The notes beneath the pieces are model-generated. The model worked only from the letters and a program-made list of their open reading frames with translations. It made no database searches and was not told where the DNA came from. A program made the translations under genes and the position numbers. From Longibacter salinarum (lineage in GTDB: Bacteria > Bacteroidota > Rhodothermia > Rhodothermales > Salinibacteraceae): DNA of 64,000 nt. Positions 5,659-60,471 of the stretch are shown here, piece by piece. Positions within the stretch are counted from its first letter, which is position 1. Each line of letters opens with the position of its first letter. The DNA is taken from positions 124,001 to 188,000 of the forward strand of contig NZ_PDEQ01000001.1 of NCBI RefSeq assembly GCF_002554795.1, in the 5' to 3' direction.

Positions 5659-6396
5659 TTGCCTCCGTCGCCAGATTCCTCTAGCCGTTCTCATTCGGAC
5701 AACGACCGCCCAGGCAAGGGTCACTCAGACCATAACCGCCAGGCGGACATTCGGCGCGTGGCGAAGATCCTCCGAGACGGCGGCTACACATACGACCGGT
5801 CGAAGCACCTCATCGCCGAGCCCCGAAAAGAGGTCAGCCTCACGCCCTCGAAGAGAAAGAAGGGAAGCGTGGACCGCTTGACAGGGGAAGAGATCGACCG
5901 GCTCCTAACGGCCGCTTATGAGAAGAGCGCGCGGCAAGGACTGATGCTCCGGACCCTCCTCGAGACCGGCATGCGCGTTTCGTTCTTCGCGAAGCTCACA
6001 GCCGAGCAGATTGCGTTTCGCGAGAAGGAGATTCGCGTGCGCGGGAGAGGGGGGAAGGCGAGGGACATCCCCATCCTTCAGAGCCTGGTGAACGAGCTGC
6101 GCCTGCACCTGGGCAATCGGCGCACCGGCTATGTTTTCCCGTCCCCGCGCGGCGGGCACTATTCATCGCGGCGCATCCAGCAGATCGTCAAGGAGCGGGC
6201 GAAAGATGCCGAGATTACAAAGCGCTTCTACCCGCACCTTCTGCGGCATACGGTCGCTAAGCGGCTCGCCGACGAGGGCATGCCGGAGAACCTCCTGCAG
6301 AAGTTTCTAGGGCATGAGAATGCGCAGACCACCCAAGTCTACTACGAACCGTCCCGCGCGCAGGTGAAGCAGGCGTTCGAGGATGCGATGGATTAA
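5659..6396 (+). CDS. Tyrosine recombinase / phage-type integrase
   Basis: The catalytic set of the tyrosine recombinase family is complete: Arg in ETGMRVSFF, Lys in RGRGGKARDIP, the HLLRH box, His in FLGHENAQTT, and the nucleophile Tyr in QVYYEP. The N-terminal DNA-binding core domain looks shortened: only about 65 residues precede the catalytic domain, and the total is 245 residues against roughly 300-330 for XerC/D. The TTG at 5659 is the first plausible start after a stop at 5605, and no strong ribosome binding site is visible. Its place behind the methyltransferase and helicase suggests it moved, or once moved, this island. It lacks any obvious IntI-specific insertion, so it is not a good candidate for an integron integrase. 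The 278 bases before it hold nothing I can name. Confidence 0.85.
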   Translation: MPPSPDSSSRSHSDNDRPGKGHSDHNRQADIRRVAKILRDGGYTYDRSKHLIAEPRKEVSLTPSKRKKGSVDRLTGEEIDRLLTAAYEKSARQGLMLRTLLETGMRVSFFAKLTAEQIAFREKEIRVRGRGGKARDIPILQSLVNELRLHLGNRRTGYVFPSPRGGHYSSRRIQQIVKERAKDAEITKRFYPHLLRHTVAKRLADEGMPENLLQKFLGHENAQTTQVYYEPSRAQVKQAFEDAMD

Positions 6397-22319: not shown

Positions 22320-22497
22320 CGTCTAGCGTACCTGATTCATCGCGCGACGGTTACAGGGGCCAGGCGCGTCCGCGCGGTGTTCGCACCAGCAAAACGGGAG
22401 TTCATGACTCGTGTACGCGGCCAGCGACTATCGCCTGGAGTTATTGATCGCAATGTTTGTCCGGCTGTAGTGCGAGAGGGACTGGTACTGGAAATTG

Positions 22498-22635
22498 TCC
22501 GGATAGTATGCGTAATTCCGTACGCCTTCCGGATAGGATTCATCGCGATAATATCGCATCAGCCTCGCTGAGGCCCGATTCAATCCAGATCGTTTTTATT
22601 ATCCCGAAGCCGTCCGGATAATAATAAGTTATCCA
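22498..22635. promoter_or_regulatory. Repeated TCCGGATA boxes and nested palindrome, possible operator
   Basis: TCCGGATA occurs at 22498-22505, 22528-22535 and 22613-22620. The last copy lies in a nested palindrome: TTATTATCC (22596-22604) pairs with GGATAATAA (22616-22624), which can also pair with the following TTATCC. It lies about 90 bases before a toxin-antitoxin operon, where antitoxins usually bind to repress themselves. The rest of 22320-22719 shows no gene. Confidence 0.4.
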
Positions 22636-22719
22636 CACCCGAAGCCAAAGCAGCGAAACAGGAAAGCGACCCCGAAGGTACCTCTCGCACGCCTCCGCAT
22701 CACAAACTCATAACCTCAC

Positions 22720-22908
22720 ATGCCTACAACTAAAGTTAAAGAAGAGGCGCAGCGCCTTATCGAGGAGTTGCCTGACGATGCCACGTGGGACGATCTCATG
22801 CAACGCATCTACGTCCGCCAAGCCATTGAAGCGGGGTTGGAAGACAGTGAGGCCGGCCGCACGATGGACGTGAACGAGCTTCGCGAAAAACTCGGACTGT
22901 CGGCTTGA
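22720..22908 (+). CDS. Type II antitoxin (small, ParE/RelE partner)
   Basis: 62 residues, with helices QRLIEELPDDATWDDLMQRI and VRQAIEAGLEDSEAGRTM, then VNELREKLGL. This is the usual makeup of a widespread family of short antitoxins found before ParE-type toxins. It should neutralise the toxin and repress the operon. It starts at ATG 22720. Its stop codon overlaps the start of the toxin gene by four bases (TTGA), a coupling typical of such pairs. The boxes at 22498-22635 are candidate operators. Confidence 0.8.
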   Translation: MPTTKVKEEAQRLIEELPDDATWDDLMQRIYVRQAIEAGLEDSEAGRTMDVNELREKLGLSA

Positions 22909-23198
22909 GGGTTCACTGGACGAACACGGCCATCGATCACCTCTTGTCGATCTACGAGTACGTGGCCCACGACTCGGAAGTCTACGCCGACCGGTTGATG
23001 GACCGGTTGACCCGGCGATCGCAGCAGGTTGGCACGTTTCCTAGGTCGGGGCGGCAGGTGCCGGAGTACGAGGCGCCAGACGTACGCGAAGTAATCGAAG
23101 GCTCGTATCGGGTCATCTACCGCATCAAGGAAGAGCAAATCGACGTACTTGCGGTAATGCACAGCGCGCAAAAATTGCCGCCCGAATTAGGCGAGTAG
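22905..23198 (+). CDS. RelE/ParE-family toxin
   Basis: 97 residues. The family pattern is clear: VHWTNTAIDHLLSIYEYVAH at the start, SGRQVPEYEAPDVREVIEGS in the middle, and YRVIYRIKEEQIDVLAVMH at the end. Members block gyrase (ParE) or cut mRNA (RelE). Which applies cannot be told here. The TTG at 22905 is used as start since no ATG or GTG precedes the conserved region. Translation is coupled to the antitoxin through a 4-base overlap. Intact length suggests a working toxin. Confidence 0.85.
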   Translation: MRVHWTNTAIDHLLSIYEYVAHDSEVYADRLMDRLTRRSQQVGTFPRSGRQVPEYEAPDVREVIEGSYRVIYRIKEEQIDVLAVMHSAQKLPPELGE

Positions 23199-23207
23199 TA
23201 GAGGTGC

Positions 23208-23324
23208 GTATAACCCCACACTGCTGCCGACGACGGGCTGCGGGCTAACTTTCTACGGTAGCACCTCAGGCGCCATTTCCGTAGGTGTTGCGATGCCCGT
23301 CGCGGCAGAGTTCGACCGTTATGC
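23208..23324 (+). other. attC-like integron recombination site
   Basis: Ten bases after the ParE-type stop, GTATAAC (23208-23214) mirrors GTTATGC (23318-23324), giving R''/R'-like outer boxes. Inside, CTGCCGACGACGGGC (23224-23238) pairs with GCCCGTCGCGGCAG (23295-23308) with one bulged base. Inside that, CTACGG (23253-23258) pairs with CCGTAG (23279-23284). Total 117 bases. An imperfect hairpin of this size with unpaired spacers and an extra-helical base is how attC sites look. The core match to GTTRRRY is imperfect (GTTATGC). Confidence 0.5.
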
Positions 23325-23400
23325 GCCCCCGTATCTCACGAACGGAAACGAACCAACCGTTACGCGTTGCATCTACATATGCTCACAGACAAGTCGCGCC

Positions 23401-23598
23401 ATGAAGAAACTCACTCTCCAACTCTCCGACGACACGGCCCAGCGCCTTGAAGTTCTTGCCGAGAAGCTCGGCGTCTCTCCAGAAGAGATTGTCCAGGCGG
23501 GTCTCGCGGAGCAGCTCTCCAGTCTAGATCGTGAGTATGAACAGGCGGCTGCCCGCGTGCTTCAGAAGAACGAAGAGCTTTATCGTCGTTTGTCCTAG
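23401..23598 (+). CDS. Antitoxin of a Doc-type pair (ribbon-helix-helix-like)
   Basis: 65 residues starting MKKLTLQLSDDTAQRLEVLA, a beta strand followed by two helices as in CopG/ribbon-helix-helix DNA-binding antitoxins. The rest (LSSLDREYEQAAARVLQKNE) is a helical tail that would wrap the toxin. ATG 23401 is used. A 36-residue upstream extension lacks homology and crosses the attC-like site. The toxin starts 21 bases after the stop. Confidence 0.75.
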   Translation: MKKLTLQLSDDTAQRLEVLAEKLGVSPEEIVQAGLAEQLSSLDREYEQAAARVLQKNEELYRRLS

Positions 23599-23619
23599 TC
23601 CCAATCGCCTGCTGATTGC

Positions 23620-24015
23620 GTGCGATATCTCAGCACTGCAGAGATCTTAGATTTACACCGCCGGGTGATTCGGCAGTCGGGCGGGAGCGAAGGTGTTCGT
23701 GATCAAGGCGGAGTACTTTCGGCGGTCGCGCAGCCCAAGATGACATTCGAAGGCGAAGAGCTTTATCCATCCATGATAGAGAAAGCGGCCGTCTTGGCAG
23801 TATCGCTCACCCGAAACCATCGACTTGTCGATGGCAACAAGCGAGTCGCGCATGCAGCAATGGAGGTGTTTCTGTTATTGAATGGCCGAGAGGTTAAGGC
23901 GAGCGTCGATGAGCAAGAGGAATTGATGCTAGGACTCGCAGCAGGGAATCTCGATAGGGAAGAGGTGGTCGAGTGGCTCTCAGATCATGTCGTACGGCGG
24001 CAGGGAACGGTGTAG
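23620..24015 (+). CDS. Doc-type Fic-fold toxin
   Basis: 131 residues, normal for Doc, which phosphorylates elongation factor Tu. The start LSTAEILDLHRRVIRQSGG and the RDQGGVLSAVAQP segment are typical. The Fic motif reads NHRLVDGNKRVAHAA, so the catalytic His and the DGNKR part are present. The usual Phe after the His is Leu. Starts at GTG 23620. Paired with the upstream antitoxin. The predicted neutralising interaction is inferred from gene order. GCATAAC occurs 5 bases after its stop, like a cassette boundary. Confidence 0.85.
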   Translation: MRYLSTAEILDLHRRVIRQSGGSEGVRDQGGVLSAVAQPKMTFEGEELYPSMIEKAAVLAVSLTRNHRLVDGNKRVAHAAMEVFLLLNGREVKASVDEQEELMLGLAAGNLDREEVVEWLSDHVVRRQGTV

Positions 24016-24291
24016 GATCGCATAACCACGCGCTCTTATTATGCCAAGCGGATGTCTTTTCTGGGTGTGTGGAAGGTTGGTGAGTCTGGGCAGAGGGCAT
24101 AGCTCCTCTGTTCGCCCTTTATCGACGCATGGGGGTGGTAGAGTGTCCGCGTACGGATATGGCTCGGCGCGTGCACCGCACGGTGTTGGTGTGCGCCTTG
24201 AACAGTCGTTGCGTCTCGTTCGCTTACCCCGAGGCCCGGCGCCAGCACCGCCGCAGAGCTCGAGCCTTATGCCGCATGAGTCAAGGACTCA

Positions 24292-24903
24292 ATGAGTAAA
24301 CATGATGAATGGCGAAGAGCCCGTAAGCAAATTGACACGGACTATAAGACGTGGCTGTATGAGGCCGCAAGGTACGGCTCGATTCCCTGCCTGCTCATCG
24401 CTCTGATCCTGGTTCTTGATGCTACTCTGCCCAGCCATGAAAGAGAGCGCGTGACGGTTTGGCGTGTCGAGAAGAGAGTAGATAGATCCTGGGAGCGCGG
24501 AGACTGGATGTACATCGTCACGAACCAGGAGCGGCCAAGTCATACATACTTGGTCATGCACGTCTACCGCGAAAGCGAAGGGAGGTCGTCCCGGTCTACA
24601 CTTGAAGTCTCGGACTACTTCGCTGAGAAAGTGGGTGCCAGTGATACTCTTTCGATTCGTGCTACGCCTCTTCTGGGAGCCAGGAAGAACGTTGTGCGCC
24701 TGAGTAACGGCAGGGTTGATGTGAAAGACAGCAACTACCAGTCTCTGCTGTATCTATTGAAAGTGATTTGGATGTTAACACCGTTTATGGCATTGGTCAA
24801 CGTGTTTGAAGTGCGGTACGGACCGCTACTTGCACTCATGCTTAGTGCGGAGATATTCTCTCTTGTCTATTGGTACTACCTCATCACTCACTTACTCTTA
24901 TAA
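24292..24903 (+). CDS. Hypothetical membrane protein
   Basis: 203 residues. One helix near the N-terminus (YGSIPCLLIALILVLDATL), a polar central domain of about 110 residues with beta character (RVTVWRVEKRVDRSWERGDW), and two C-terminal helices (LLKVIWMLTPFMALVNVF, GPLLALMLSAEIFSLVYWYY). No family is recognised. TTATGC lies 20 bases before the ATG. The 276-base gap before it holds GCATAAC at 24020-24026, possibly a second, longer cassette boundary. Confidence 0.5.
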   Translation: MSKHDEWRRARKQIDTDYKTWLYEAARYGSIPCLLIALILVLDATLPSHERERVTVWRVEKRVDRSWERGDWMYIVTNQERPSHTYLVMHVYRESEGRSSRSTLEVSDYFAEKVGASDTLSIRATPLLGARKNVVRLSNGRVDVKDSNYQSLLYLLKVIWMLTPFMALVNVFEVRYGPLLALMLSAEIFSLVYWYYLITHLLL

Positions 24904-25143
24904 GCACAGGGCCGGCATACCAAGCGCATCATCGCGGACGTCAGGCCGTCGGCGTCTTCTCGTCAGCACGTCTCTTGAGCGTTCTTGAAATAGAATGCGA
25001 ACGTCCAATAGACACCGAGCCGATTATGCGTGGACCGGTATGCGCATGGATATACCTTGAGATAGATCGTCTGTCTTTGTTGCACCCGCAGATGGTCCAG
25101 GTCCGCGTTCGTCGCGAAATCCACACCACCTAAATATCACTTT

Positions 25144-60247: not shown

Positions 60248-60339
60248 GTGCGAAGCTAGGGGTGCCGCCCGTCGAACCGGGCGGCTGAGAAAGACCCTTG
60301 GAACCTGATCCGGTTCGTACCGGCGAAGGAAAGCTTCAC
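60248..60339 (+). promoter_or_regulatory. TPP riboswitch (THI box)
   Basis: The conserved core is present: GGGGTGCC near the start, GGCTGAGAAAGACCC in the middle, ACCTGATCCGGTTCGTACC and GGCGAAGGAAAGC. The outer stem pairs GTGCGAAGCT (60248-60257) with AGCTTCAC (60332-60339). It lies 132 bases before tenA, so thiamine diphosphate should lower its expression. The mechanism (transcription or translation) is not evident. Confidence 0.93.
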
Positions 60340-60471
60340 TCCGGTCTTCTTGATGGCTCGTGACGTCGATCCACGAAAGGATGCGCTTGCATCCGCGTGT
60401 TCACGTATCCAGCACGACCTGACTCCCCGGCTTCGCGTCATTCGATCCTTTCTGACGCAATCTCTAGCCTT

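Follow-up and report, generated by a model that had tools for sequence, protein, structure and literature searches.

The attC site and the cassettes that it joins

The window, i.e., the entire 64,000-nucleotide stretch of DNA analyzed here, was found to contain a short array of gene cassettes on the plus strand, which is preceded by an attI-like sequence (Table 1). The first cassette encodes a ParE toxin together with a putative ParD-like antitoxin, for which a Pfam search returned no family above cut-off, while the second encodes a Fic/Doc family toxin. The preliminary description of this DNA had placed an attC-like site between two toxin-antitoxin pairs, and this placement is borne out by the flanking genes: ParE (PF05016) lies to the left of the site, and Fic/Doc (PF02661) lies to its right, along with a small upstream ORF that resembles a ribbon-helix-helix (RHH) protein below the cut-off.

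Table 1. Positions of the features composing the cassette array in the window
Feature	Position	Strand	Remarks
attI-like site	22485..22632	+	Satellite copy without adjacent intI; expected crossover between G22628 and T22629
Cassette 1 (ParDE toxin-antitoxin)	22629..23318	+	5' end complementary to own R'' (10/12)
Putative ParD-like antitoxin ORF, 62 aa	22720..22908	+	Overlaps ParE start
ParE toxin	22905..23198	+	PF05016, 63.8 bits
attC 1	23208..23324	+	R'' 23208-23214, L'' 23221-23238, L' 23295-23310, R' 23318-23324; R1 109.2 bits
Cassette 2 (RHH-like ORF + Fic/Doc)	23319..24266	+	5' GTTATGCGCCCC against complement of own R'': 10/12
Putative ribbon-helix-helix antitoxin, 65 aa	23401..23598	+	RHH_1 19.3 bits, below 20.5 cut-off
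Fic/Doc family toxin	23620..24015	+	PF02661, 65.4 bits
attC 2, degenerate	24020..24272	+	R'' GCATAAC 24020-24026; R'-like CTTATGC 24266-24272
Probable cassette 3 (203-aa ORF, no assigned family) and decayed attC	24267..25024	+	

The R'' box of attC 1 (GTATAAC) starts nine bases past the TAG stop codon of the ParE gene (23196-23198), and its R' box reads GTTATGC; both were accepted as attC boxes, with one mismatch each to the strict consensus (RYYYAAC and GTTRRRY, respectively). The inner stem is formed by CTGCCG-A-CGACGGGC (23224-23238), which pairs with GCCCGTCG-CGGCAG (23295-23308) and leaves a single extrahelical A, and unpaired spacers separate the inner from the outer stems. All parts named in the preliminary description, i.e., the boxes, the bulged L''/L' stem and the unpaired spacers, are thus present. 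DNA folding of the site yielded a z-score of -2.55, with 1 of 200 shuffled sequences folding as well, which by itself may be considered suggestive.

A simple scan based on boxes and folding proved too weak, as it missed known attC sites, and was superseded by a covariance model, designated R1, which was constructed from nineteen attC sites identified by similarity in other genomes, the window and its own genome being left out. This independent model returned a strong match at 23204-23328 (E = 2.1e-30, the E-values of R1 being rough because its calibration was short), which identifies the site as an attC. Furthermore, the inner stem comprises sixteen predicted pairs in the alignment of the nineteen attC sequences, five of which exhibit two-sided changes, and one pair switches between A-T and C-G in seven of these sequences. 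A copy that is 75% identical to attC 1 is located on contig C9 of the same genome (C9:69421-69531). Based on these sequence features, attC 1 is an attC site at which two cassettes join, and its recombination by an IntI is predicted.

An ordinary hairpin, such as a terminator or a REP-like repeat between two toxin-antitoxin operons whose likeness to attC is due to chance, might also follow a stop codon, as this palindrome does. Such an origin is, however, difficult to reconcile with the E-value of 2e-30 from an independent model, with the attC-specific boxes, with the fact that the genome also carries attI and intI, or with the cassette boundaries that a homologue from another genus delimits (see below), and we regard it as extremely improbable; a terminator or REP hairpin was ruled out by the model score and the cassette boundaries. 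An Rfam search returned no match at the attC site at either threshold. The sole Rfam match in the window is a TPP riboswitch (RF00059, 71.1 bits) at 60248-60348.

The preliminary description had made its claim dependent on attC-model matches at or near this position, and two were obtained, the second and weaker of which is located at 24153-24276 (13.6 bits, E 0.056). This match represents the remainder of attC 2, which carries ~130 bp of inserted sequence after its R'' box, and which resembles the attC sites of contig C2. The locus possesses one strong attC site and one that is weak and interrupted, with no intI nearby. Cassette 3 is probable, as judged from its position in the array and from the R''-like sequence GGCATACC past its ORF, and the R1 model returned no match to its attC. 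The ~130 bp insert of attC 2 (24030-24160) was also observed at the ends of contigs C2 and C5 (C5:392361-392536), and contigs C6 and C8 each start with a transposase-like ORF, presumably IS110-like as recognized from the sequence by eye, directly followed by an attC remainder. The insert shared between array ends and the starts of C6 and C8 suggest an element for which attC sites serve as targets of insertion, possibly a complete insertion sequence in the case of attC 2.

The first bases of a gene cassette after the G^TT junction are expected to be complementary to its own R'' box. Among nine cassettes of this genome, 7.3 of the 9 positions beyond GTT were found to match the R'' box of the same cassette, as opposed to 4.4 of 9 in other pairings, and one in 100,000 permutations was equally good. 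The boundaries of cassette 1 are furthermore delimited by a homologue in a genome of another genus (G002, genus g2), with a DNA identity of 86%. The match (window 22628-23222) begins at the G^TT junction and stops shortly after R'', and identity outside it falls to 28% over the 60 preceding bases and to 23% over the 60 following ones, i.e., the unit from TTRRRY to R'' has moved as a block in the manner of a gene cassette. A ~2.2-kb chromosomal stretch common to both genomes is 74% identical, and the higher identity of the cassette is as expected of horizontal exchange. On this sequence comparison, cassette 1 is one that has been transferred between genera, and the 86% versus 74% identity points to its insertion after the genera had split. 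A plasmid search returned no relevant match.

attI copies and the integrase of the genome

The preliminary description was correct as to the attC site and the cassette end, although the more unusual feature of the locus, the attI-like site 580 bp upstream, went unseen. This sequence of ~146 bp is present in five copies in the genome, i.e., in the window, on contigs C2, C5 and C9, and elsewhere on C1. The copies display pairwise identities of 79-88%, the C2 copy being the most similar to that of the window (88%), and the right end of every copy is a G^TT junction (A^TT in one case). The C2 copy is placed between a divergently oriented integron integrase gene and the first cassette, so that it adjoins intI and is joined by cassettes at G^TT, as befits an attI site, and its homologue in the window lacks an adjacent intI. 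Position and conservation indicate that these sequences would serve in IntI binding and recombination. Variability over the last 40 attI columns was found to be lower than over the remaining ones, both in this genome (p 0.03) and in that of a relative, G004 (p 0.013), both tests being small. Such a pattern would be expected were the recombination end constrained.

The integrase encoded on C2 (TIGR02249, 399.7 bits against a cut-off of 265) possesses the expected catalytic motifs and is the only one in the genome above this cut-off. A translated search of up to 4 kb upstream of the four other, satellite attI copies returned no trace of intI, and the window locus therefore does not represent a complete integron composed of intI, attI and attC. 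Similarity among the left flanks of the copies (170 bases) does not exceed that of shuffled sequence. R1 returned twelve attC matches in this genome at E <= 0.001. A weak match of the intI search near the C9 copy corresponds to a different tyrosine recombinase; at C9:69885-70334 (L002, L012) the attI copy abuts the 3' end of a 392-aa tyrosine recombinase gene with ~25% identity to IntI. The window also encodes a tyrosine recombinase (5866-6342; PF00589, 119.5 bits), which scores far under the integron integrase cut-off.

An ortholog of the C5 attI locus is present in the sister species G001, where the attI-like sequence is truncated on its right half and followed by different cassettes. R1 detected no attC after the C5 copy itself; one was read by eye, situated where the contig ends and broken up by inserted sequence. 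At the position of the window locus, G001 retains the flanking genes with no attI between them, the intergenic region being too divergent to define an exact empty site.

The arrangement described above is probably one of satellite arrays on duplicated attI sites that are served in trans by one IntI, the activity in trans being what we infer from it, as is the manner in which the attI copies became scattered. The window site is the attC of the ParDE cassette, the first in a short array headed by a duplicated attI site without a neighboring integrase. The IntI of C2, i.e., of another contig, would act in trans on the window copy and on the other attI copies by recombining them with the attC sites of circular cassettes, folded as single-stranded hairpins. 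Several chromosomal loci would thereby be loaded, with one IntI serving several arrays. The absence of an adjacent intI would also befit an ordinary CALIN for which a distant IntI inserted cassettes off-target at a non-specific genomic site (attG), a type of insertion that has been described in the literature (as cited in passages of PMC12901181 and PMC12444791). What heads the array, however, is the genome's own attI in a copy of 146 bp rather than a short attG-like match, and an off-target origin is consequently very unlikely.

Integrase-less attI copies among relatives

An integron integrase above the curated cut-off was identified in 24 of the 60 genomes searched (that of the window included), and integrons are thus common in this order. 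Matches to the integrase at E 1e-70 were obtained in 14 of 34 genera, and the R1 attC model returned matches in 34 of the 60 genomes. Queries with attI regions from several relatives retrieved more than one attI copy per genome in G004, G003, G010, G015 and G021, among others, and several attI-like copies were also found in G037 and G033. The scan for intI covered up to 4 kb upstream of the examined copies, some of these stretches being ended by contig ends, and identified 27 attI copies for which no intI was detected, including the four satellite copies described above. For 24 of these 27, a same-strand attC was found downstream (at a median of 624 bp), and attC sites around the 27 copies number 67 downstream versus three upstream, this check covering genomes other than G037 and G033. 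These integrase-less arrays in several related genomes suggest that one integrase may load several chromosomal places.

The survey yielded several further observations. On C27 of G003 (L143; 3726-3766), an attI-like copy is preceded by three attC sites and followed by none before the contig end, possibly representing an attI inside or between arrays. The upstream flanks of two attI copies in G004 (C1:1633917 and C1:2517349) are alike beyond attI, which suggests a longer duplication. A second attC type of ~198 bp, with its own conserved stem, was also observed among relatives (L058, L094, L124, L125, L126, L131, L132, L142 and L144).

Truncated intI genes were identified beside some of the attI copies in G037, G033, G010, G018 and G008. 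For example, G037, a single-contig genome from another family, possesses a graded series of attI-like copies, which are accompanied by a complete intI, by 65 and 57 N-terminal residues of it, or by none, while in G033 one copy retains 73 residues and two retain none; at further copies about 99-218 residues are left. The series in G037, G033 and others shows that loss of intI does happen, and such remnants beside attI imply that at least part of the pattern stems from whole integrons that were duplicated or transferred and then lost intI. The sole intI detected in G004 is a truncated one, and current activity in trans from that gene is unlikely there. It may be argued on these grounds that such arrays are relics, i.e., that whole integrons were repeatedly duplicated or acquired, that their intI genes were deleted and that the remaining attI-headed arrays are inactive, and the decay seen in the window at attC 2 and cassette 3 would fit this reading. 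For the genome of the window, however, the four satellites have unrelated left flanks besides their lack of any detectable intI trace, their attI sequences are still 79-88% alike with the crossover end being least variable, and cassette 1 is closer to its g2 homologue than the core stretch is, indicating insertion after the genera split. Clean left boundaries, a conserved attI end and a recent cross-genus cassette favor continued use, and we consider it rather unlikely that the arrays are merely relics.

Satellite arrays loaded in trans thus remain the preferred reading for this genome. The broader proposal that, throughout this order, one integrase routinely serves several dedicated and scattered attI copies, each loading its own array, is one for which we judge the chances to be even. 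If it holds, attI behaves as a dispersed element, and many integrase-less clusters would be satellite arrays in working order, as opposed to products of decay or of off-target insertion.

Comparison with known integron systems

Integrase-less cassette clusters are widespread, and the origin of CALINs is debated, with off-target insertion, loss of intI and rearrangement having been proposed (PMC8618304). It has also been reported, in a passage of PMC12444791, that IntI can mobilize CALINs in trans. A search of the open-licence papers in PubMed Central for duplicated, orphan or additional attI sites returned no description of such sites, and in this literature we found no earlier account of a genome whose own attI stands, in copies, at the head of separate chromosomal arrays. 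The occurrence of such clusters in several genera, and in more than one family, makes a dedicated satellite attI used in trans a further route that is directly testable.

A complete integron has been reported in Salinibacter ruber M1 (PMC9024848). Sedentary chromosomal integrons, of which this is one, comprise the same components as those described here, i.e., IntI, attI, attC and cassettes, and C2 represents such an intI locus with its attI and array; they differ from the present case in that four extra attI-headed arrays without intI occur here in one genome. CALIN elements likewise consist of attC arrays without a nearby intI, whereas the arrays described here open with a sequence recognizable as a copy of the attI of the same genome. 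Detection of attI by IntegronFinder 2.0 is restricted to class 1 integrons (PMC9024848), and attI-headed arrays would therefore be reported simply as CALIN, so that this arrangement may escape notice elsewhere.

In Xanthomonas, CALINs at conserved loci also provide a genome with several arrays located apart from its single intI; the relevant passages of PMC12444791 describe no attI copy at those loci, and the two cases are set apart by that description. Displaced attI sequence is likewise a property of the Delta-attI-type cassettes of class 1 and class 2 integrons, in whose arrays pieces of attI can travel and for which recombination by IntI1 has been demonstrated in assays (PMC12901181). Delta-attI cassettes, however, mostly carry short attI pieces at cassette ends within one array (PMC12901181), whereas the copies described here are ~130-150 bp long and head separate chromosomal arrays.
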